Source: Natrialbaceae archaeon Tc-Br11_E2g14 (GTDB lineage Archaea; Halobacteriota; Halobacteria; Halobacteriales; Natrialbaceae). From it: a stretch of 37,138 nt of DNA. The stretch spans positions 1-37,138 of the forward strand of contig LKND01000022.1 of NCBI GenBank assembly GCA_001564275.1, written 5' to 3'. Below, one piece after another: positions 15,861-30,142 of the stretch (position 1 is the first letter of the stretch; each line of letters opens with the position of its first letter). Position numbers and translations under genes: made by a program. Below the pieces are notes generated by a model, which ran no database searches, was not told where the DNA came from, and saw only the letters and a program-made list of their open reading frames with translations.

Positions 15861-16000
15861 CATCCTCCGCGCCGTGAACGGCGCGGCTTCCCGGCATGGG
15901 AATACCAGCTAAGTTTCGCTGTTGCTGGCAGAGGGTTCCGACCCGTGGAAAGTCGAGAGAGTCATCTGCGAGGGTTCCTCGCTCGTCTCTCGGTGGGTCG
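15840..16000 (-). ncRNA. expected TnpB guide RNA (reRNA/omega RNA) at the right end
   Basis: TnpB nucleases use an RNA made from the 3' end of tnpB and the right end of the element, with the guide taken from the flanking DNA. Here that RNA would cover the tnpB tail and the hairpin at 15867-15886, and the guide would start at 15856 reading away from the element (CGAAGTAAGACGACCGCACC). This is inferred from family knowledge and position; the 5' boundary is arbitrary. Confidence 0.4.
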
Positions 16001-17180
16001 TGGCGCTGTCACAGGCGCTCCCATCCCGTGAGATGTCATCGTCCGCCGGTTTCAGCGGCAGGCTCTCACCCCACGGGTCATGGCGGCCAGCGATGTTGAC
16101 CGCCGCGTTGATGTCTGCGTGGTACTCCGATACCCAACACTCGTCGTTCTGGCACCGGAACACGTCACCGTTCCGGTGCCCGACGTGATCGCACTCGTGA
16201 CACGTCTGACTCGTGTACTCTGGTCGGACGTATTCGACCGGAAGCCCTGTCTCTCGTGCCTTGTCATCGATGCGCTGTTGAAGCCGAGCGAACGCCCATG
16301 CGTGGAGCCGTCGGTTCATCCACTCACCGTAATCGAGGTCTTCACGGATGTCCGAAAGATCTTCCAGCACAAGCACTGGCTTCTCGAATCGACAAGCATA
16401 CTCGACAGCACGTCGAGACGCCTTCTCGATGATGTCTGTGAGTGCGTTCTGGTAGTGATCGAATCGCTCGTCTATCCGCCACTGTGAGGCGTCACGCTCT
16501 TGCAGTCGCTTGAGCGTCGTGAACATCCCTTTGCGAAGGTGACGAGCGCGACCACCATTGATGAGCAGTGGGTCACTCGGAGTGCCCTGCTCGCAGGCAC
16601 AGCCCGCGAGCAGGTGTGCTTCGCCAATGTCGAAGCCGACTGGTGTTACATCGTCGTCTGTCGGTTCGTAGTCCGGTTGTTCGACCGGAAACTCGACGGT
16701 GACGTGGAGTGTCCACGACGTGCGGTGGCGTTGCAGTCGGAGTTGTCCCGCCGAAGCGTCACCGTGTACGAGGTCGTGCCACAGACCGTCTTGTTCGGGG
16801 TTGATACGAAGCGGTATCCAGAAATTCGTCCCGCGACCGGGTTGCGGTGCCCACCATGTAAACTCGTAGTCACGCGCCGCCGAGTGGTCAAACTCGGCGG
16901 CTTGGTTGGTGAGCCGAACCGGGTGGTCGTCGTCCAACTCCTGTGCGTTGTAGATGTCGTGAAGTTGTGGAACGTAGTTGCACAAAGCCGCTTTCGCCTG
17001 ATACGGGAGGTCGTAGGGCGTCACTACGTCGCTGGTTGCGCTCATCGTGTCACACCCGGCTTCGAACGCTTCGTGAAGCCCCTCACGGTAGGTTTCGAGC
17101 AGGTCACACAGTTTCTGCTCTTTGTGTGCTGTCGGCGGGGCGAGCGTGGCTTCCAGCGTTTTCGTGGCTGTTGCGGTCAT
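15909..17180 (-). CDS. tnpB: TnpB, RNA-guided DNA endonuclease (IS200/IS605 OrfB)
   Basis: TnpB is an RuvC-type nuclease guided by an RNA from the element's right end; it is the presumed ancestor of Cas12 and aids retention of the element. This 423-residue copy looks catalytically complete: RuvC-I VGFDIGEAHLL (Asp184), RuvC-II VLVLEDLSDIRE (Glu273), a zinc ribbon Cys327-x2-Cys330...Cys343-x4-Cys348 in SQTCHECDHVG, and RuvC-III HADINAAVNIAGR (Asp356). The start at 17180 lies one base after the tnpA stop, so the pair is co-transcribed. The C-terminal ~50 residues are Ser/Thr/Glu-rich and poorly ordered, as often in haloarchaeal TnpB. No frameshift is seen. Confidence 0.94.
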   Translation of the reverse strand: MTATATKTLEATLAPPTAHKEQKLCDLLETYREGLHEAFEAGCDTMSATSDVVTPYDLPYQAKAALCNYVPQLHDIYNAQELDDDHPVRLTNQAAEFDHSAARDYEFTWWAPQPGRGTNFWIPLRINPEQDGLWHDLVHGDASAGQLRLQRHRTSWTLHVTVEFPVEQPDYEPTDDDVTPVGFDIGEAHLLAGCACEQGTPSDPLLINGGRARHLRKGMFTTLKRLQERDASQWRIDERFDHYQNALTDIIEKASRRAVEYACRFEKPVLVLEDLSDIREDLDYGEWMNRRLHAWAFARLQQRIDDKARETGLPVEYVRPEYTSQTCHECDHVGHRNGDVFRCQNDECWVSEYHADINAAVNIAGRHDPWGESLPLKPADDDISRDGSACDSATTHRETSEEPSQMTLSTFHGSEPSASNSET

Positions 17181-20973: not shown

Positions 20974-21045
20974 GCCTGGGTAGCTTAGCGGTAAAGCGCG
21001 TCCTTGGTAAGGACGAGAGCCCGGGTTCAAATCCCGGCCTAGGCT
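20974..21045 (+). tRNA. trnT: tRNA-Thr (anticodon GGT)
   Basis: A 72-nt cloverleaf without intron. Acceptor stem GCCTGGG pairs with CCTAGGC (one G-T), the D stem is GCTT/AAGC, the anticodon stem CGTCC/GGACG encloses the loop TTGGTAA with anticodon GGT at 21006-21008, and the T arm is CCGGG-TTCAAAT-CCCGG. The discriminator is T and CCA is not encoded. GGT reads ACC and ACU threonine codons. An ATAAAG box about 32 nt upstream (20940-20946) is the likely TATA element. Confidence 0.96.
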
Positions 21046-21230: not shown

Positions 21231-22076
21231 ATGCGAGTATTCATTTCGGCGGACATGGAGGGGGTCACCGGTATCGCGACACCCGAAGACGTCGTCAGCG
21301 GCGAGGAGGAGTATCCTCGTGGGCGGGAGTTGCTGGTCGGCGACGTGAACGCAGCGGTCGAGGGCGCACGTGCCGGCGGTGCCGACACCGTCCTCGTCAA
21401 TGACGCTCACTCGACGATGACGAACATTCCACGGGGAGAACTTCACGAGGGGGCGGGGCTAATCCGGGGCAACACCAAACCGCGATCGATGATGCAGGGG
21501 CTCGACCCGGACCACGACGTGGCGCTGTTCGTCGGCTACCACGCCATGGCCGGCACCGCCGAGGCGGTGTTGAACCACACGTTCGTCGGCCACGAACTGC
21601 TTCGACTCCGCGTGAACGGGGCCGAGGTGGGCGAGCTGGGGTGGAACGCCCGTCTCGCAGGGGCCGAAGGGGTGCCGGTCGGACTGGTCACCGGCGACGA
21701 CGCGACTGTAGCCGAGGCGAGCGCGGAACTCGGGGCGTCGACGCCCACGGTCGCCGTCAAACGCGGCATCGACCGATTCAGCGCGGACTGTCGCCCGCCG
21801 GCGGTCACAAGGGAGGCGATTCGCGAGGGAGCGATGCGTGCCCTCGAGCGTGTGGCTTCGGGTGCCCTCCGGGCGATGTCCCCGACGGAGCCGACCCGGA
21901 TCGAGGCCGACTGGTCGGCGACGAACCACGCTGTGGCGGCCGCATCGATGCCGGGCGTCGAGCGTGCAGGCTCGCGCACGACAGCGGTGGCGGCCACCAC
22001 GTACCCAGGCGCTTTCGAGGCGAGTGTGGGGATGCTCCGCGCGGGCGTTGCCGGCAGAAACGAGTGCTACGGCTGA
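21231..22076 (+). CDS. M55 family D-aminopeptidase (DppA-like)
   Basis: A 281-residue zinc aminopeptidase of family M55, whose type member (Bacillus DppA) removes N-terminal D-amino acids. The metal-ligand pattern of DppA is kept almost residue for residue: SADMEG (Asp8, Glu10), VNDAHS (His60), FVGYHAMAG (His104), a further NHT (His116, catalytic-His position) and GAEVGELG (about Glu135). Length is normal (about 275). It follows the tRNA gene by about 185 nt and has no operon partner in view. The physiological substrate in haloarchaea, which lack murein, is not known. Confidence 0.92.
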   Translation: MRVFISADMEGVTGIATPEDVVSGEEEYPRGRELLVGDVNAAVEGARAGGADTVLVNDAHSTMTNIPRGELHEGAGLIRGNTKPRSMMQGLDPDHDVALFVGYHAMAGTAEAVLNHTFVGHELLRLRVNGAEVGELGWNARLAGAEGVPVGLVTGDDATVAEASAELGASTPTVAVKRGIDRFSADCRPPAVTREAIREGAMRALERVASGALRAMSPTEPTRIEADWSATNHAVAAASMPGVERAGSRTTAVAATTYPGAFEASVGMLRAGVAGRNECYG

Positions 22077-22250: not shown

Positions 22251-23123
22251 GTGACTCGAACGATTTCCCAGGAGCGCTATCTCGAGGCGAAACGGACGGT
22301 CGACGACCGATCGCTGAACCGGACTGTCATCGACGAGTTGGCACCGATACTCGCCGATTCGACTGAAATCGTCGAGATCGGTGCCGGGATCGGCACGATG
22401 GTCCAGCGCCTGCTCGAGTGGGAGTTACTCCCAGACCGGCTGACGTACACACTGGTCGACGTCGATGGAGACGCAATCGAGAGCGCACGGGAGCGTCTGC
22501 CCTCGTGGGCTGCCTCGGCGGGCTACACCGTCCAGGAGGACGGCGCGATCACCCTGCGCCGTGAGGGCCAGGCGGTCCGCATCGAGACCGCGGTGATGGA
22601 CGCGACCACCCATCTTGCCACGGCGACGCCGGATCTGGTCATCGGCTCAGCGTTTCTCGACTTGCTGACGCCGGTCGAGGTCGACGAACTGTTCGCGCAC
22701 CTGCCCGAGGGCTGTCACTGCTACTTCCCGATCACGTTCGATGGCGGGACGACGTTCCAGCCGGCTGTCTTCCCGGCGTTCGACGAGCACGTCGTCGATC
22801 GGTATCACGAGAACATGCACCGCCGCGAGAATCCTGGCGATCCACACGCGGGGCGGCACCTGCTCGCACGCGCGGCGAACGATCACACGCTGCTCGCCGC
22901 AGGCGCATCGGACTGGGTCGTCGCCCCCAATGACGGGGGCTACCGGGCCGACGAAGCTGACTTCCTGCATCACCTCGTCGGGACAGTGACGTCGGCGCTC
23001 GCGGAGAGCCCCATGGTCGACGACGATCGGCTGAAGAGCTGGGGGGACCACCGCCACGAACAGATCGATCGCAACGAGCTCGTCTACATCGCCCACCAGC
23101 TAGACGTGCTGCTGACCGTCTGA
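22251..23123 (+). CDS. SAM-dependent class I methyltransferase
   Basis: A 290-residue Rossmann-fold methyltransferase. Motif I is IVEIGAGIGTMVQRLLEW (about 47-64), followed by the acidic strand end YTLVDVDGDAIESARERLP (motif II) and DLVIGSAFLDLL (motif IV). The C-terminal ~120 residues are a family-specific region with several His (GCHCYFPITFDGGTTFQP and MHRRENPGDPHAGRHLLARA). The GTG at 22251 is read as the start; an ATG at 22247 is out of frame, and the TATATC at 22220-22226 fits a leaderless start here. Its 3' end overlaps that of the glycosyltransferase on the other strand by 24 nt. Substrate is unknown, but position ties it to the arfA/PTPS gene block. Confidence 0.82.
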   Translation: MTRTISQERYLEAKRTVDDRSLNRTVIDELAPILADSTEIVEIGAGIGTMVQRLLEWELLPDRLTYTLVDVDGDAIESARERLPSWAASAGYTVQEDGAITLRREGQAVRIETAVMDATTHLATATPDLVIGSAFLDLLTPVEVDELFAHLPEGCHCYFPITFDGGTTFQPAVFPAFDEHVVDRYHENMHRRENPGDPHAGRHLLARAANDHTLLAAGASDWVVAPNDGGYRADEADFLHHLVGTVTSALAESPMVDDDRLKSWGDHRHEQIDRNELVYIAHQLDVLLTV

Positions 23124-24206
23124 ACACCGCTCGAGGAACGATCGGACCTCGCTCATCGTCTCCGCCCACGTCGGCTGTGCGTCGGCCGTCACGAGCGCGT
23201 TCTGGCCCAGTCGAGCCAGTCGGGCCCGGTCGTCGTCGAGGGACCGAAGGTGGGTGGCGATCTCCCGGTCATCTCCCGGCTCGACGACGAATCCGTTGTG
23301 GCCGTGCTCGACGAACTCGGTTGCGCCACCGACGGTTCCGGCGATCGGCACGACACCGTACTCCATCGCCTCGAGATAGACCATTCCGAACGCCTCGTAC
23401 TGTGAGGGGACACAGCAGACGTGGCTCCGCTCGAGGATGGTCTCCAGTTCGGGTGTCTCTATCTCCCCGGTGAACGTTACCCGATCGGCAAGCCCACGTG
23501 CCGTGGCCGCTGTGACGACCGACGCCGCGTACTCGGGATCGGCATCGTGACTGCCGACGACCGTTAGTTCCCAGTCCCGCTTCGGTCCTCTTCGGGCGAA
23601 CGCGCGCAGGAGCGTCTTCGGGTCCTTTCGCGGAATCAGGTTCCCGATGTACACGATCCGGAGCGGCTCCCGCTTGGCTCGCTCCCTGACGTGCGCCGGC
23701 GGTACCCCGCTGCCTTCGGTCCGGCCAGCCGGGGGCGCGACGAGGCTGGGCGTCCCGCTCGTCCGAGGCGCTCGCTCGCGTGCACGGCGTTCGGTGAACT
23801 GGCTGGTACTGATCGTGGCGTCGACCGATTCGAGAAACCGCCGCTCGAACGGGTGGACGACGGACGAAAACCGTTCGCTCGGGTCGTCAGACCGGAGGTG
23901 ATGGACGAGTGCGACGGTCGTTCCCGGCGCGGACAGGCCGTGGTTCTGTCGCCACAGCGACGGATGACAGAGCCCGTCCTGCACGAGCACGTCGACGGGC
24001 CGTTCTAGCCTCGATCGGATCGACGGGGAAACGCCATCGACGAGCGCTCGCGGGTACGAACGCCACGGGAGCGAGATCACCTCGACGGTGTCGCCACACT
24101 CGCGGAGATGCGAGACGAGCTTCCGATCGTATCGAAAGCCGCCGGACGTCGCATCCAAATCGCCGTAGATCACCACCCCAACGTGCATCGCCGTATTCTC
24201 GCTCAC
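23100..24206 (-). CDS. GT-B glycosyltransferase (family 1/4 type)
   Basis: A 368-residue two-domain glycosyltransferase expected to move a sugar from a nucleotide donor to an acceptor. The C-terminal GT1/GT4 domain shows RIVYIGNLIPRKDPKTLLRA, the middle strand LTVVGSHDADPEY, FTGEIETPELE and the donor-binding E-x7-E signature in PSQYEAFGMVYLEAMEYGVVPI. The N-terminal half (VGVVIYGDLDATSGGFRYDR) is the acceptor domain. No membrane segment is seen, so it is cytoplasmic. The GTG at 24206 begins 9 nt after the PTPS-like gene, so the two are co-transcribed; an ATG at 24188 is an alternative start. The coupling to a pterin-fold enzyme makes a pterin-type acceptor attractive but unproven. Confidence 0.88.
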   Translation of the reverse strand: MSENTAMHVGVVIYGDLDATSGGFRYDRKLVSHLRECGDTVEVISLPWRSYPRALVDGVSPSIRSRLERPVDVLVQDGLCHPSLWRQNHGLSAPGTTVALVHHLRSDDPSERFSSVVHPFERRFLESVDATISTSQFTERRARERAPRTSGTPSLVAPPAGRTEGSGVPPAHVRERAKREPLRIVYIGNLIPRKDPKTLLRAFARRGPKRDWELTVVGSHDADPEYAASVVTAATARGLADRVTFTGEIETPELETILERSHVCCVPSQYEAFGMVYLEAMEYGVVPIAGTVGGATEFVEHGHNGFVVEPGDDREIATHLRSLDDDRARLARLGQNALVTADAQPTWAETMSEVRSFLERCSDGQQHV

Positions 24207-24214
24207 GCTCGTGC

Positions 24215-24592
24215 TCAGAGCGTCCGTTCGTGGGTGACGCTCGCGACGTCGTCTTCCTGCAGTTCCACCCGCAATCGCGTCGCCGCCTCGGGTTGGAGCC
24301 GCGTCAGGAGGCTGTCACCGAAGATTCGGGCGAAGTGTTCGGCGCTCGGGTTCCGTCCCTCGAACGCCGGCAACTCGTTGAGCGTCTCGTCCCGGAACGC
24401 CGCGACTGTCGTCTCTAGGGCTTCGAGAACGGCGTCGATATCGACGAGATAGCCGTACTGGTTCAACTCAGGACCCTCGAAGGTCACTTCGACGGTGAAG
24501 TGATGGGAGTGTACCGTCCCCTCCGGCCCCGGGTCAGGAACCGTCAGCCAGTGCTGTGCGACGAACGACCGAGTAACCGAGACCGCATACAT
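24215..24592 (-). CDS. 6-pyruvoyl-tetrahydropterin synthase / QueD family homologue
   Basis: A 125-residue T-fold protein. The zinc triad of the family is visible: His14 in SFVAQHWL and His28/His30 in TVHSHHFTVEV. LVDIDAVLEAL, NPSAEHFARIF and VELQEDDVASVTH are family segments that build the pterin pocket. The catalytic Cys found just before the HGH motif in PTPS and QueD is absent; a Glu (Glu24) lies four residues before His28, as in the PTPS-III variants. It may thus act on dihydroneopterin derivatives with different chemistry. The ATG at 24592 has a TTAATAAC box about 25 nt upstream. It heads a unit with the glycosyltransferase. Confidence 0.85.
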   Translation of the reverse strand: MYAVSVTRSFVAQHWLTVPDPGPEGTVHSHHFTVEVTFEGPELNQYGYLVDIDAVLEALETTVAAFRDETLNELPAFEGRNPSAEHFARIFGDSLLTRLQPEAATRLRVELQEDDVASVTHERTL

Positions 24593-24610
24593 GTTTTTTT
24601 CTTTGACTGC

Positions 24611-24620
24611 GTGTTATTAA
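24611..24620 (-). promoter_or_regulatory. TATA-like box of the PTPS-glycosyltransferase unit
   Basis: On the minus strand TTAATAACAC (24611-24620) is centred about 25 nt before the ATG at 24592. This implies a separate leaderless transcript for the PTPS-like and glycosyltransferase genes. Confidence 0.5.
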
Positions 24621-24703
24621 GTGGATCCCCTGTGTGGCTGTCGGGGCCACCGTCCGTCTGTGGCTCCGATGGGGTCGATCGACCGGGCCGAGTCGCGACG
24701 CCG

Positions 24704-25471
24704 TTATGTCGACCCGTCGAGTCGTCCGGAGACGACGAGCCAGTCCCGCGTGAAATTGAGGAGGAACGGCACCAGTACCAGCCAGGCGAGCAATCGAGAC
24801 AGCGACGCACCCGGAACGGGCAACAGCGCGAGCCAGATGACGACCATCGCGGCCCCACCGAGTGCCCGCCGGAGATCACTCGGATCGAGTTCGTACACGT
24901 CGCTGCCGCGACGGCGGCGGTACTTGATGCCCGCGACGAAGAGGTACCGGGCGAGTCCGACGAGTACGAAGACCGCGGGGGCGACGCCGTACCGAACGGC
25001 GAGGAGGGCCCCCACGAAGACCGTAAGGGCGTCGACTTCTACGTCGAGGCGCTCGCCCCGTTTCGATTCACAATCCAGCCTGCGGGCGATCGCCCCATCG
25101 GCGGCGTCCACCGCAGCCGCGAGCGCGAACAGGACACCGGGTGCCCACGCGATCGCGCCGTCGGGTTTCGGAACCACCAGAAATCCCATGAGCAACACCA
25201 GTGCACCCCCTCTGGCGATCGTTACCCAGGTCGCAACCGTGATCCGTTCCGGGCCGACTTCGGCCAGCGCGAGTTGAAACGTCCGCCATGTCGTCGCCGA
25301 CACGACGGCGAATCCCGCGAGTGTTCCGAGGAGGTACGGGTCGGTCGGACCGCTCTCCCACGCGAACGCGAGTCCGCTTCCACCGATGACGACGAGGAGT
25401 GCCGTTACTCCCGTCGCAACCACCCAGTGGTGGCGGTGTCCCGTCATCGCTGATGCTTGCTCAATCGTCAT
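24704..25471 (-). CDS. CDP-alcohol phosphatidyltransferase family membrane protein
   Basis: A 255-residue integral membrane enzyme that joins a CDP-activated lipid or alcohol to an alcohol. The full signature D-x2-DG-x2-AR-x8-G-x3-D-x3-D is present as DAADGAIAR...GERLDVEVD, in the middle of the protein. Around it are five or six hydrophobic helices (VVATGVTALLVVIGGSGLAF, GGALVLLMGFLVVP, AVFVLVGLARYLF, MVVIWLALLPV). In archaea the family makes archaetidyl-inositol, -serine and -glycerol phosphates, but the alcohol here cannot be told. The ATG overlaps the stop of the ParB/Srx-like gene (ATGA at 25468-25471), so the two are translationally coupled. Confidence 0.9.
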   Translation of the reverse strand: MTIEQASAMTGHRHHWVVATGVTALLVVIGGSGLAFAWESGPTDPYLLGTLAGFAVVSATTWRTFQLALAEVGPERITVATWVTIARGGALVLLMGFLVVPKPDGAIAWAPGVLFALAAAVDAADGAIARRLDCESKRGERLDVEVDALTVFVGALLAVRYGVAPAVFVLVGLARYLFVAGIKYRRRRGSDVYELDPSDLRRALGGAAMVVIWLALLPVPGASLSRLLAWLVLVPFLLNFTRDWLVVSGRLDGST

Positions 25472-26247
25472 TCCGCACCCACCCCGACGAGATCGTACAG
25501 GTCAGGATGCTCGCGATACGCAGCATCAACGGCAGTCAGGCCCCCGTCCCGCACCCGGTCGCGGACGCGCTGCCACTCGCGATGGCGACGCTGGACGACC
25601 ACGGGTACCGCCTCGAGGTCGAGCAACTTCGCGATAGCGAGCCGGTGTTGGCCGTAGGTCCGCCAGTAGATCGTCCCGTTGTGGCCGATATCGACGTTGA
25701 TCTCGTCCGCTCGAGCCCCGAGCGTCGCCCCACAGTCGCGCAGTTCGGCTTGCTCCCGGTAGCCGTCCCGTTCGATCGACCGGTAGAGTCGTTCGATCTC
25801 CCGACACCGCCGCTCGAAGTCGTCGATCGAAGTGTACTCCCAGGCGTTGCCAAACCGCTTCAACTGGTCGACGTACGCGTCGTAGAGGGCGGTCTCCGCC
25901 CACGGGATGTCCGCGAGGAATCGCTGTTCGAGGCCTCGAGGGACTCGCCGGTCGTCGAACGGTTCCCACGCCTGCTCCCACGCGCCGCCGACGACACGCC
26001 CCCACTGCGGTCGCCCCGGCGCGGCCTCCAGCAGGCTCCGGTTGATCCGGCACGGGTCGATCTCGCGCAGGGCGAGTGGGTCGGCGTCAGTGTACCGGCG
26101 GGGCCAGAGCCGTCGCCGGAGGCGATGCCACCGTCTCAGCAACGAAAGCGGGATCCGCCGGCTCACCGGGTTCGCCACGCCACGTCGAATCGCGACGACG
26201 CTCCGCCCACGAAGCCGCCTGAACCGTGAGATCGGTTCGTGGCTCAC
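25468..26247 (-). CDS. ParB/sulfiredoxin-fold-like protein of unknown function
   Basis: A 259-residue basic/acidic soluble protein. The C-terminal part contains INVDIGHNGTIYWRTYGQHR followed by LAIAKLLDLEAVPVVVQRRHREWQ, which resembles the ParB/Srx fold, where a G-x-HR-L motif carries nucleotide-phosphate contacts. The N-terminal ~50 residues are Arg-rich; the middle is helical (DFERRCREIERLYRSIERDG). The GTG start at 26247 is fixed by a GTGA overlap with the 4-TM gene upstream. Its stop overlaps the CDP-alcohol transferase start by ATGA. Proteins with this motif occur beside glycan and lipid genes in haloarchaea, but the reaction is not known to me; kinase or nucleotidyl activity is conceivable. 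Confidence 0.72.
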   Translation of the reverse strand: MSHEPISRFRRLRGRSVVAIRRGVANPVSRRIPLSLLRRWHRLRRRLWPRRYTDADPLALREIDPCRINRSLLEAAPGRPQWGRVVGGAWEQAWEPFDDRRVPRGLEQRFLADIPWAETALYDAYVDQLKRFGNAWEYTSIDDFERRCREIERLYRSIERDGYREQAELRDCGATLGARADEINVDIGHNGTIYWRTYGQHRLAIAKLLDLEAVPVVVQRRHREWQRVRDRVRDGGLTAVDAAYREHPDLYDLVGVGAE

Positions 26248-26615
26248 GACTCGCGTCGATAGAGCAGCACTAACACGATGATCAGGACGACCTGTGCGAC
26301 TTTGTCGGCAATCTCCGCGGTACCGAGTGCTGAGAGACTGTCGGGCTGGTTGACCACGTACCAGCCACCGATCTGTACGAGGGTGAACGGGATCCCGGCG
26401 AGGTAGACGAGCGTGCGTCGGTAATCGATCAGCACAAGCACGACAGCACCGACGAAGCCGCCCGTCGCGAGCAAAAAGAGCACGCCCATATAGTGCGGAA
26501 AGAACCCGATGCCGAGCACGAGGTGGACGAGCGCACTCACGAGGGCCATCGCGATTCCGACCCAGTGCAGCGGGGTCAGTGAACCGAGGGCGAGGACGCG
26601 GTCCGTGGAACTCAT
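26244..26615 (-). CDS. small four-helix membrane protein
   Basis: A 123-residue protein almost entirely hydrophobic, with four predicted membrane helices (LHWVGIAMALVSALVHLVLG, MGVLFLLATGGFVGAVVLVL, TLVYLAGIPFTLVQIGGWYV, KVAQVVLIIVLVLLY). It has no catalytic motif and resembles haloarchaeal DUF membrane proteins of this size. The ATG at 26615 has a minus-strand CATTTATGAC box about 25 nt upstream. It heads a coupled unit with the ParB/Srx-like and CDP-alcohol transferase genes, so it may anchor or support them at the membrane. Confidence 0.8.
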   Translation of the reverse strand: MSSTDRVLALGSLTPLHWVGIAMALVSALVHLVLGIGFFPHYMGVLFLLATGGFVGAVVLVLIDYRRTLVYLAGIPFTLVQIGGWYVVNQPDSLSALGTAEIADKVAQVVLIIVLVLLYRRES

Positions 26616-26803
26616 CGACTGTGTGTTTTCGTACTGTCATAAATGTGTTTGCATAGCGGCACTCGAGCGGGGTCGACGTTCTCACGTCCCCCGAGGGACG
26701 GGCGCGAGCCACGCGAAAGTGCCGTAACGGTTTGGATTGCTGCGTTGAATATCCTGCCGTGCAGTCATCGGTGGATAGCGTCATCCAGTGACGGCGCGTA
26801 TCT

Positions 26804-26819
26804 CCGCCCCGAAGGGCGG
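26804..26819. repeat. GC hairpin in the 239-nt gap after the MDR dehydrogenase
   Basis: CCGCCC-CGAA-GGGCGG at 26804-26819 is a perfect 6-bp stem with a tetraloop, followed on the plus strand by GGGGTTT. It lies between two minus-strand genes. It resembles GC hairpins at the ends of IS1341-type elements, but no other remnant is visible; it might also end the arfA-dehydrogenase transcript. Nothing else is recognised between 26616 and 26854 apart from the promoter near 26640. Confidence 0.4.
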
Positions 26820-26854
26820 GGGGTTTGCGCCTGCTCATCCCATAACAGACCGCA

Positions 26855-27844
26855 TCAGTAGGTGAACACGACCTGCAGCACCGATTCGACGCGATCGTCG
26901 AGCAGTTCGTAGGCTCGCTCGGCCTCCTCGAAGGGGATTCCGTGGCTGATGAGCGCCGCCGTCTCGATCCGCTCGAGCCACTTCAGTGCCGTACCCAAGC
27001 GTCGGTCGGTATCCCACCTGCCACGGAGTTCGGGGGCGATGGTACTGACCTGACTGGAGACGAGGTCGATCCGGTTACGGTGGAACCGCCCACCGAGATC
27101 GATCGGTGCTCGTTTGGTCCCGTACCAGGAGCCGACGATAACCCGGCCATCGTAGCCGACGATCTCGATGGCGTCGTCGAGCACGGCTGGCTGTCCCGAT
27201 AGCTCGACGACGGCGTCGACCTCGCTTGCATGTTCGTCGAGTCGGTCCGGATGACAGACCGCATCGGCTCCAAGCTCCGCGGCGAGCGTCCGGCGGTTCT
27301 CGATCGGGTCGACGACGACGAGTCGATCGAGCGGAAACTCGGACAGCAGTCGCGCTGTACACAGACCGACGACTCCGGCACCGAAGACGACGAGTTCCTC
27401 ACCCAGGCGGGGTTCGGTGTCGAGCGTCAGGTTCGCCGCCGTCTCGACGGTCGGCAGTAACGTCGCGTGTTTGGCCGAGAGGGTCTCGGGGACCTCGATG
27501 ACGTCGTCCAGGCGGGCAGTGAATCGCGTCTGGTGTGGGCTGAACGCAAAGACGCGCGTCCCGATCCGATCGCTCCCGACGTCACACCCGACAGCGACCA
27601 CCGTGCCGACGGCAGCGTAGCCGTACTGCAACGGGTACGAGAAGGCACCGTCGAGGCTCGCGATCGTCTCGTCGACGGCCATTGCCGACGGCATCTCGTC
27701 ACGGTAGACGAGCATCTCGGTGCCCGCACTCACCGCCGAAAATTCGGTCTCTATCAGCAGTTCCCCAGGCCCCGGATCCTCGACCGCGATCGGTCGGGTT
27801 TCGACGGTCCGTTCGCCGGTGAAGTACAGCGCTTTCGGGCTCAT
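26855..27844 (-). CDS. MDR-superfamily dehydrogenase lacking catalytic zinc ligands
   Basis: A 329-residue medium-chain dehydrogenase/reductase. The N-terminal catalytic domain reads EFSAVSAGTEMLVYRDEMP where zinc enzymes have Cys-Gly-Thr-Asp, and LQYGYAAVGTVVAVG where they have Gly-His-Glu, so the zinc ligands are missing. The Rossmann motif ELVVFGAGVVGLCTARLLSE and the strand end RLVVVDPIENRRTLA bind NAD(P). This subfamily includes BchC-like alcohol dehydrogenases that oxidise or reduce side chains of large ring systems. The ATG at 27844 overlaps the arfA stop (ATGA, 27841-27844), which is strong evidence for one operon and a linked reaction, perhaps reduction or oxidation of a pterin or flavin side chain. 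Confidence 0.85.
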   Translation of the reverse strand: MSPKALYFTGERTVETRPIAVEDPGPGELLIETEFSAVSAGTEMLVYRDEMPSAMAVDETIASLDGAFSYPLQYGYAAVGTVVAVGCDVGSDRIGTRVFAFSPHQTRFTARLDDVIEVPETLSAKHATLLPTVETAANLTLDTEPRLGEELVVFGAGVVGLCTARLLSEFPLDRLVVVDPIENRRTLAAELGADAVCHPDRLDEHASEVDAVVELSGQPAVLDDAIEIVGYDGRVIVGSWYGTKRAPIDLGGRFHRNRIDLVSSQVSTIAPELRGRWDTDRRLGTALKWLERIETAALISHGIPFEEAERAYELLDDRVESVLQVVFTY

Positions 27845-28629
27845 CGATCGATGGTCGCCTGTGGGCCGAACCGATCGATCCGCCGACCCGTTTCTCGACA
27901 CTCCTCGAGCGCCAGTTTCGCCCGGTATCCGGCCTCGTGTGGGGTTTCGCCCTCGCCGACTCCCACCTGGAGCGGAATGCCAGTCGTCGCCTGTACGTGC
28001 GCTGTGGCAGCCTCGAACGCTTCCTCCTCGAGTGATGGACAGAGCGCAATGATGTTGTCGCCCCCGACAAATCGAGCCATACCCTCGTGTTCTTCGCGGA
28101 GATAGGACGCAAGTGACACGGTCGCCCGCTGGATCGCAAGCGAGGTCTCCCCAGCGCCTTTTTGATCGGTGAACTCGCCCGTGACGTCGATCACGTCGAA
28201 GTGGGCGACGGTGAGCGAGCCGCTGGTCTCCCCCACTGGCCCGGCCGTCGCGAGACGTGCGGTTCGCTCGGCGTCCTGTGCGCTTCCTTCCGCCTGGAGC
28301 ACTCGTGAGGCAGTTTCGAGCGCCGCCGTCGGCGTCTCGCCGACGCCAACTCCGATGCTTATCGTCACCGGATACTGGTTCCTGATCCGTTCCTGAAGTC
28401 GTTCGTGGTCCGCGACGGTCATCCCGTCGGTGACGGCGATCATGTTGTCGATCCGATCGAGGAAGGCGTAGCCGTCGTGGCCCCCCACGAAATCGGCGAG
28501 CGTTGCGTATAGCCGAGCCTGTAGCGCTTGCAGATCCGTCTCCCGACGGGGTGACGGGGTCACCGTCCACGGCCCGTAGTTGTCCAGTTGGACGAGCGAG
28601 AGCTGGACTGCATCCCGTGTGTTGCTCAC
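27841..28629 (-). CDS. arfA: GTP cyclohydrolase III (archaeal ArfA)
   Basis: ArfA (MptA-independent) opens GTP to 2-amino-5-formylamino-6-ribosylaminopyrimidinone phosphate, the first step to archaeal riboflavin and F420. The 262-residue sequence is highly characteristic: LVQLDNYGPWTVTPSPRRE and TDLQALQARLYATLADF at the N-terminus, FLDRIDNMIAVTDGM, RIRNQYPVTISIGVGVGETP, and the second-half copy with GMARFVGGDNIIALCPS. This duplicated cyclase-like fold is typical. The Methanocaldococcus enzyme is 268 residues. The GTG at 28629 aligns with the family start; further upstream in-frame sequence is not family-like, and a TTATTATC box is 26 nt upstream. No arfB follows; the next gene is a coupled dehydrogenase. 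Confidence 0.94.
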   Translation of the reverse strand: MSNTRDAVQLSLVQLDNYGPWTVTPSPRRETDLQALQARLYATLADFVGGHDGYAFLDRIDNMIAVTDGMTVADHERLQERIRNQYPVTISIGVGVGETPTAALETASRVLQAEGSAQDAERTARLATAGPVGETSGSLTVAHFDVIDVTGEFTDQKGAGETSLAIQRATVSLASYLREEHEGMARFVGGDNIIALCPSLEEEAFEAATAHVQATTGIPLQVGVGEGETPHEAGYRAKLALEECRETGRRIDRFGPQATIDR

Positions 28630-29026: not shown

Positions 29027-30058
29027 TCAGACGAACGATATCGCCGCCTCGAGTTCCAGGGGAACCGACCCCTTCCGATACCCTTCCACACGACCGTCGG
29101 GTCGGGCGCGATAGACGACGGCCGGTCGGTGGCGGACGTCGGGTTGCTCCCCGCGAACCATCCGCCAGGCGTCGTCGGGGAAACTCGAGCAGTCGACGAA
29201 GAGGGTCGCGCCGCCGCCGTGCTCGGCGAGTTGCCCGCTCGTCTTCGTTTCGGCGGTGTCCCGAACGGCGGCGACGGGCCCGGGGGCGGCACGGTTGGCA
29301 GGAGGCTGGGGGCGGGTCACCTCGACGAGGACGTTCGTATCGCCGTTGCGGGCCCGGTAATCCAGCGAATGCCCGGTCGTCACCTCGATTTCGGGCGTCA
29401 CGTCGTAGCCCGCGTCGACGAGAATCTTGGCGGCGATGAACTCGGCCATGGCGGCACTCATGCGCACGCGATCGACGTGGGAACTGGTGCCGAGTTTGCC
29501 GGCCATCACGTCCCGGTAGTCGTCCAGAGCACCGGTCTCGAGGATCCCCTCGATGAAGGCCGTCGTTTCCCGGCGGGAGGCGTCGGGGAAGCCGGCGGCG
29601 TGTTCGCGAAAGAACGCGCGGGTGGATTCCCGGCCGTCTTTGGACATGAACACGGGGAGGAAAAACCACGAGAGGTAGGGATAATCCGCGAGCCAGGGCT
29701 CTCGGTCGTGCAGGGTCGCGAGAAGTTCGCGCTGGGCCCACCGGGAAACGGGGTACGGGACCGCCTCCCAGGGAACCTTGTCGGTCCGCCAGAGCGAGGA
29801 GGGCGTTTCGGTGTTGCCCATCCAGTAGGCGTCGTCGCTCGAGCGGGCGAACAGGGCGACGTCGCCGTTCGCCATCTCGAAACGATGGGTCTTCCAGGTG
29901 CCAGAAATGGCGTACCACGGCCCGGCATCGGTGGCCCCGAGGTTGCTATCGAGGGGCGTGAAGATCTCTCGGTGGACACGATCGTCGGTCCACGTCTGGG
30001 GCGAGTATCGAAAGCGAAGGGGCCGGGCCACGCTGGTGGATTGGCGGTCGGTGGGCAT
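29027..30058 (-). CDS. conserved haloarchaeal protein (DUF5784-like)
   Basis: A 343-residue soluble protein. I recognise the start (RPLRFRYSPQTWTDDRVHRE, then IFTPLDSNLGA) as a haloarchaeal family I remember as DUF5784. The C-terminal third resembles a restriction-endonuclease-like fold: a conserved helix AEFIAAKILVDAGYDVTPEI, then SLDYRARNGDTNVLVEVTRP with the Asp...Glu-x-Val/Lys spacing of PD-(D/E)xK proteins. If real this suggests a nuclease or DNA-repair link, but the usual Lys is replaced by Thr, so activity is uncertain. The ATG at 30058 is chosen for composition. It is divergent from the small DUF5786-like gene. Confidence 0.75.
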   Translation of the reverse strand: MPTDRQSTSVARPLRFRYSPQTWTDDRVHREIFTPLDSNLGATDAGPWYAISGTWKTHRFEMANGDVALFARSSDDAYWMGNTETPSSLWRTDKVPWEAVPYPVSRWAQRELLATLHDREPWLADYPYLSWFFLPVFMSKDGRESTRAFFREHAAGFPDASRRETTAFIEGILETGALDDYRDVMAGKLGTSSHVDRVRMSAAMAEFIAAKILVDAGYDVTPEIEVTTGHSLDYRARNGDTNVLVEVTRPQPPANRAAPGPVAAVRDTAETKTSGQLAEHGGGATLFVDCSSFPDDAWRMVRGEQPDVRHRPAVVYRARPDGRVEGYRKGSVPLELEAAISFV

Positions 30059-30142
30059 ACGTCTATCCTTTCTTTCAGCCCCGAGTGTATGAACGACCGT
30101 TACATTCATATGCGACAGGAGCCTACGATGTCGGTACTTGCC

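Follow-up and report, generated by a model that had tools for sequence, protein, structure and literature searches.

A gene cluster common to haloarchaea and bacteria that may convert GTP into a decorated pterin-like compound

GTP is the precursor of folates, flavins, biopterin, F420 and tRNA bases. The archaeal ArfA-ArfB-ArfC start of riboflavin synthesis employs the same enzyme family, ArfA (GTP cyclohydrolase III), as the subject of this report, a block of genes at positions 22251-28629 of a 37,138-nucleotide stretch of contig LKND01000022.1 from Natrialbaceae archaeon Tc-Br11_E2g14 (the whole stretch is referred to as the window). Unlike the riboflavin-start enzyme, the ArfA of the block is divergent and is tied to a medium-chain dehydrogenase/reductase (MDR), a protein of the PTPS fold, a GT4 glycosyltransferase and a methyltransferase, while the other arfA copy of the genome lies elsewhere.

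Among bacteria, the cluster to be compared is that of SCO6650 and SCO6655 in Streptomyces coelicolor, from which the haloarchaeal one differs in using ArfA where bacteria use RibA. SCO6650 (PDB 3d7j) is a homologue of the block PTPS, with the nearest fold and the pterin-site Glu residues in common; presumably it has no zinc site. SCO6655 is, we assume, a GTP cyclohydrolase II in the SCO6650 gene neighbourhood that gives a formyl product, and we take it that the structure of SCO6650 and the activity of SCO6655 were known previously. Literature searches for three or more of six gene names and for the locus tags SCO6650, SCO6651, SCO6653 and SCO6654 found no paper, and SCO6655 appeared only in a table row of one paper. 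A third point of comparison is BrbF of Sinorhizobium, a creatininase-family formamidase that, according to PMC9478397, deformylates the ArfA product, the formyl intermediate of ArfA and RibA. BrbF serves riboflavin, whereas here such creatininase-family genes are found in or near few clusters (in L037 and L131; near L101, L103 and L180).

We propose, at a probability of roughly 0.6, that the block represents a dedicated, horizontally mobile cluster whose product, built from GTP, is a small molecule of a decorated pterin-like type (containing a 2-amino-4-oxo-pyrimidine). The equivalence of haloarchaeal and bacterial clusters across the two domains is new as far as our literature searches go. 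Two unrelated families of GTP opener, ArfA and RibA, adjoin the same core; this exchange, together with fusions of RibA to a reductase or to the dehydrogenase, points to the start of the pathway and makes the pathway testable.

Gene content and recurrence of the cluster

The genes of the block are as follows.

27841-28629, minus strand: arfA paralogue (GTP cyclohydrolase III), predicted cluster-dedicated copy; GTG start; PF05165, E 1.5e-84
26855-27844, minus strand: zinc-less MDR dehydrogenase, distantly BchC-like; PF00107, E 8.7e-12
26244-26615, minus strand: DUF7475 small protein, membrane-like by eye; PF24287, E 1.1e-13
25468-26247, minus strand: unknown protein, non-core; GTG start at 26247; no Pfam match
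24704-25471, minus strand: CDP-alcohol phosphatidyltransferase-family enzyme (CDP-alcohol phosphotransferase); PF01066, E 6.2e-14; motif intact
24215-24592, minus strand: PTPS/T-fold protein, nearest SCO6650; PF01242, E 1.5e-23
23100-24206, minus strand: GT4 (GT-B) glycosyltransferase; PF00534, E 4.7e-36
22251-23123, plus strand: class I S-adenosylmethionine (SAM) methyltransferase; PF08242, E 5.9e-6, below the cut-off

An earlier note on this DNA had named five families (arfA, MDR, PTPS, GT-B and methyltransferase). All of them are real and lie at the coordinates given here, but the CDP-alcohol enzyme, the DUF7475 protein and the unknown protein between them had been overlooked. The note had also called the dehydrogenase coupled, and indeed its ATG start shares 4 bases with the arfA stop. 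The methyltransferase gene is convergent with that of the GT4, on the opposite strand to the rest of the block, and its best Pfam match reaches 27.4 bits against a family cut-off of 30 bits. As a lead to its substrate the profile was discarded as uninformative, since it matches many unrelated methyltransferases (best 7.8e-7). The CDP-alcohol enzyme possesses the full DxxDGxxAR...D motif.

Close relatives of the PTPS (E 1e-6 or better) were sought in 116 halobacterial genomes, and were found at 72 places in 71 genomes and 32 of 45 genera. The genes encountered no more than 6 kb from them are those of the MDR (65), the methyltransferase (52), the CDP-alcohol enzyme (43), DUF7475 (43), ArfA (29) and the unknown protein (6). 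The GT4 scored at 57 places, 52 of the 72 being counted as strong; five matches were left out as weak (42-48 bits) and on the opposite strand. This is the co-occurrence across Halobacteria that the earlier note had proposed to look for, and the counts support its idea of a dedicated multi-gene GTP pathway conserved well beyond the strain. A strain-specific gene order, by which that idea would have fallen, is ruled out by the recurrence of the genes in halobacterial and bacterial loci, the MDR standing within 6 kb of the PTPS at 65 of the 72 places and the pair being shared by 16 of 19 bacterial loci. A named set of 28 haloarchaeal loci, which excludes Longimonas and in which several loci end at contig ends, contains the MDR in 22, the methyltransferase in 20, the GT4 in 19, the CDP-alcohol enzyme in 13, ArfA in eight and a creatininase in one. 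The order in Haloferax profundi (L021) is ArfA-MDR-PTPS-GT4.

The bacterial set comprises 19 loci (L028, L031-L034, L037-L044 and L127-L132, with L034 and L131 lacking annotation). Near the PTPS these possess the MDR (16), the methyltransferase (16), the GT4 (13), RibA (10), the CDP-alcohol enzyme (7) and a creatininase (2), and 13 contain a RibD_C protein, either separate or fused. The bacterial order RibA-MDR-PTPS-(GT4)-methyltransferase parallels ArfA-MDR-PTPS-GT4-methyltransferase, and a GTP opener together with MDR, PTPS, GT4 and methyltransferase is found both in the block and in L031, L042, L130, L131 and L132. Exceptions include L034, which lacks the methyltransferase, and L129, which lacks the MDR; on rhizobial plasmids RibA is divergent from the MDR, and on two Streptomyces plasmids it is located beyond the methyltransferase. 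The MDR proteins of L127, L128 and L130 are nested among the haloarchaeal ones in a 69-row group (99/98), yet the opener there is RibA; this nesting suggests that they were transferred from haloarchaea.

In the phylum of Longimonas, such a PTPS was found at E 1e-20 in five of 247 genomes. Among Archaea of the block's own phylum 27 of 196 genomes matched it at E 1e-20, and five of these are outside Halobacteria; the MDR adjoins the PTPS in all five of these loci, and RibA is present in two. L180 has the order methyltransferase-RibA-MDR-PTPS-GT4, a creatininase gene lying at a distance of about 2 kb, and no GTP opener was found in the stretch covered of L177-L179. Near the cluster in L097 (5378-7393) and L174 (1869-3839) there is a Gfo/Idh/MocA-aldo/keto reductase fusion, of a family found in 20 of the 72 halobacterial loci.

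The cluster has the appearance of an acquired island, and homologues of it are located on many plasmids. The PTPS is absent from G045 and G046, two genomes of the same genus. In the 16-kb stretches compared, collinearity with these starts at 29030-29031, just right of arfA, and the left border of the cluster was not found. A vertically kept DUF5784 gene (29027-30109) marks the synteny breakpoint, the relatives matching, in these stretches, from 29030 rightwards only. To the left, the M55 D-aminopeptidase gene (21231-22076) is missing from G045 and G046; of five relatives searched, four gave no match to it at E 1e-20, and the match in G033 is 35% identical and located elsewhere. A tRNA-Thr gene (GGT; 20974-21045) also lies left of the cluster and is a possible site of its insertion. 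A TnpB-like protein (PF07282, Cas12f1-like TNB domain) is encoded at 15909-17180.

The GTP-opening enzymes

The ArfA of the block is assigned to the GTP cyclohydrolase III family by a near full-length match to PF05165 (283.6 bits, profile positions 2-234 of 246) and a match to a solved structure (PDB 2qv6, E 2.8e-53 over residues 8-252). This family occurs in 113 of the 116 halobacterial genomes. G079 and G089, from one genus, have no arfA or PF01242 match. The genome carrying the block has a second, divergent arfA (G000:C77:2026-2763, L117) that groups with the genus copies of G045 and G046. Two arfA genes without a PTPS are found in G086 and G110, the second copy of G110 being partial.

Of the 71 genomes with the PTPS, 29 carry an arfA at most 6 kb from it (12 of them have two arfA genes and 17 have one), and in one no arfA was found. 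An arfA stands beside the PTPS in all 12 of the two-arfA genomes versus 17 of the 58 with a single arfA (Fisher 5e-6, uncorrected for relatedness among genomes). Random placement would be expected to bring the two genes together in about 0.3 genomes, a rough estimate assuming 3.4-Mb genomes, versus the 29 of 71 observed; the proximity is more than chance. In a tree of 70 rows, comprising all 29 linked copies and 41 of 98 unlinked ones and carrying a long-branch warning, the block ArfA falls among seven sequences that group with 100/100 support. All seven are cluster-linked, and two come from genomes with a single arfA. To account for the two classes of linked copies, the starred branches require no fewer than 4 to 5 changes. 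From this grouping, the second copy and the forced changes, the arfA of the block is, as judged from its sequence, a specialised paralogue, and linkage to the cluster seems to have arisen more than once.

Haloferax volcanii becomes a riboflavin auxotroph when its arfA (HVO_1284) is deleted (PMC8305020), so that a single linked arfA probably serves both riboflavin synthesis and the cluster pathway. The earlier note had described the block as built around GTP cyclohydrolase III. This does not hold: 42 of the 71 genomes have no arfA within 6 kb of the PTPS, RibA replaces it in other loci, and arfA as the organising gene was consequently rejected. The note had further argued against simple riboflavin synthesis from the absence of arfB. 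That absence is no argument by itself, as two creatininase-family genes (of the candidate ArfB type) and a single RibD_C reductase are encoded elsewhere in the genome; the second, divergent arfA does, however, argue against a purely riboflavin role.

RibA offers a further clue in the residue at the position of E. coli Tyr105, which we take to correspond to the Met of SCO6655. Both actinobacterial RibA proteins (L037 and L131), each with a nearby creatininase, have Met at this position, while the other ten have Tyr and only one of these (L180) has a creatininase nearby. Creatininase thus accompanies 2/2 Met-type and 1/10 Tyr-type proteins (p 0.045, in one lineage only), which is suggestive only of Met-type RibA marking creatininase-bearing clusters. 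The Met form in SCO6655 presumably stops at the formyl intermediate, which is the ArfA product.

RibA is fused to RibD_C in L028, L127 and L130 by Pfam, and in L128 by our own hidden Markov models only. The Pfam scan of the separate RibD_C proteins of L031, L032, L033 and L041 revealed the RibD_C domain and no deaminase domain. In L176, RibA is fused to the block MDR family in a single open frame without stops. From these two kinds of fusion, bacterial and archaeal, we surmise that opening, reduction and the MDR reaction are consecutive or coupled steps.

The PTPS-like protein and the dehydrogenase

QueD (PTPS-I), PTPS-II and PTPS-III (COG0720) have the fold, His14 with HxH, and the pterin-type Glu in common with the block PTPS. 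The latter reads ExxxHSH, versus CxxxHGH, CxxxxxHGH and ExxHGH in PTPS-I, -II and -III (motifs from PMC5041015). The CxxxHGH motif with its catalytic Cys is absent and the QueD model scores 40.1 bits against a cut-off of 89.25; the PTPS-III motif is absent as well, the E being one position earlier in the block protein. A QueD or archaeosine role was rejected on the missing motif and on the presence of a second PTPS-family gene elsewhere in the genome (C20:34419).

The protein has the zinc-type His14, His28 and His30, Glu24 at the Cys position, and Glu85 and Glu113. That the catalytic Cys is missing, as had been noted earlier, is confirmed by the alignment, where 71 of the 72 haloarchaeal rows have E at this position. 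Glu85 and Glu113 are each retained in 90 of 91 rows, and because these two pterin-site residues are kept a pterin product is plausible. The third His is present in 72/72 haloarchaeal rows and replaced by Ala in 14/14 plasmid-borne bacterial rows; haloarchaeal members have three His, Glu24 and Asp68, whereas the 14 plasmid-borne bacterial ones have Ala24, Ala30 and Tyr68. PDB 3d7j is the closest of the structures compared. On a Haloarcula marismortui plasmid (L174:6001-6312) the PTPS is unannotated and matched over residues 18-121 only, with an annotated MDR and GT4 on either side.

Zinc-dependent MDR alcohol dehydrogenases are characterized by catalytic Cys/GHE zinc ligands. The block MDR lacks these: Cys does not exceed 30% in any column of the 82-row MDR alignment, and GYA occupies the place of the usual GHE motif, in agreement with the label of zinc-less given earlier from sequence. 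The BchC model TIGR01202 matches it at E 1.2e-25, yet with 90 bits against a cut-off of 291.

Proposed pathway and alternatives

From the gene content, its conservation, the replacement of the opener, the fusions, the paralogue status of arfA, and the predicted fold and residues of the PTPS, we infer the activities themselves and all chemistry after ring opening. The opening of GTP to a (formyl)aminopyrimidine ribosyl phosphate would fall to ArfA, whose place RibA takes in bacteria and in some archaea, and a creatininase-type formamidase would strip the formate where the opener leaves it. A RibD_C/ArfC reductase, present in 13 of the 19 bacterial loci and presumably a housekeeping enzyme in haloarchaea, would then give a ribitylamino side chain. 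In the genome carrying the block, deformylation and reduction could be supplied from elsewhere, by the two creatininase-family genes and the RibD_C reductase already mentioned. The zinc-less MDR would oxidise a side-chain hydroxyl; if this is at C2', the 5-amino group could close on the ketone to form a dihydropterin. The SCO6650-like PTPS would bind the product via its two conserved Glu and act on the side chain, after which the GT4 would glycosylate and the SAM enzyme methylate it; the CDP-alcohol enzyme may further link it to a phospho-alcohol or a lipid.

Several observations weigh against this proposal. Within 6 kb the GT4 and the methyltransferase are each missing at 20 of the 72 halobacterial places and the MDR at seven, and in L047 and L052 the PTPS is without any core partner. 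The same is true of L040 and L043, two Streptomyces plasmids where the PTPS, without MDR, GT4 or methyltransferase, is found near cupin and MEKHLA genes. The sole arfA is unlinked in 41 of the 71 PTPS genomes. Neither RibD_C nor creatininase was found within 6 kb at any of the 72 places, which makes the haloarchaeal reductase step an assumption. Creatininase occurs at 6.8 kb at two of these places and in only two of the 19 bacterial loci; L002, the only one of the 28 named loci to have it (5.1 kb), is without the MDR. Furthermore, the LDH of E. coli QueD, which we take to contain the catalytic Asp-His pair of PTPS, aligns with R67-D68 in the block protein, and the third His is absent from the plasmid-borne members in bacteria; for these two reasons the PTPS may bind rather than catalyse.

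One less likely alternative is that the GTP-derived unit becomes the head group of a membrane lipid or cell-envelope component, the CDP-alcohol enzyme joining the unit (or a polyol made alongside it) to a CDP-lipid and the GT4 and methyltransferase tailoring it. The intact motif of this enzyme fits such a role, as do its presence within 6 kb in 43/72 halobacterial and 7/19 bacterial loci, the LPG_synthase_TM-type membrane proteins that score in six of the 19 bacterial loci (L031, L037, L041, L042, L131 and L132; Pfam-checked in L031 only) and the Gfo/Idh-aldo/keto reductase fusion family in 20 of 72 loci. However, 29/72 and 12/19 loci, respectively, have no such enzyme within 6 kb, and family scans of the GT4 and the methyltransferase gave no lipid-specific match above the cut-off.

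GTP cyclohydrolase I makes the side-chain ketone of pterins by rearrangement. A bolder form of our own proposal, which we hold to be doubtful, is a second pterin route without this enzyme: a flavin-type opener and reductase would make a ribitylaminopyrimidine, the MDR would restore the ketone, closure would give a dihydropterin, and the SCO6650-type protein, GT4, methyltransferase and CDP-alcohol enzyme would convert this to a glycosylated, possibly lipid-anchored pterin common to archaea and bacteria.

It is unlikely that the block is only a part of riboflavin or F420 synthesis, with arfA supplying the flavin precursor and the PTPS or MDR filling a missing step (ArfB, deaminase or phosphatase). 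Bacterial riboflavin genes are ordinarily housekeeping, while this cluster is also found in Rhizobium, Streptomyces and other bacteria; the PTPS is present in 71 of 116 genomes versus 113 for arfA; and the genome itself carries two creatininases, an ArfC-type reductase and an arfA separate from that of the block. On the other side stand the 17 PTPS genomes with a single, linked arfA, the HVO_1284 phenotype and the remaining gaps in the haloarchaeal pathway (PMC8305020), and an unpublished role of PTPS-IV in F420 mentioned in PMC5041015.

Halopterins occur in haloarchaea, and the Haloarcula marismortui plasmid has the CDP-alcohol enzyme, MDR and GT4 with the partial PTPS match between. A specific pathway to charged halopterins (phospho- and sulfohalopterin) is nevertheless improbable, given the core set in soil, marine and plant-associated bacteria, the 45 of 116 halobacterial genomes without the PTPS, the unannotated and partial state of the H. 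marismortui match, and family scans of the block that named no sulfotransferase; the literature searched mentions solfapterin only, and not halopterin.

If the proposed GTP-to-pterin cluster is real, a further GTP-derived compound would be common to haloarchaea, some other archaea, Longimonas relatives, proteobacteria and actinobacteria. Such a compound, unassigned in the literature searched, would mean that cofactor or natural-product biochemistry has a notable gap, and laboratory models for it should exist in Haloferax and in Streptomyces coelicolor (SCO6650).

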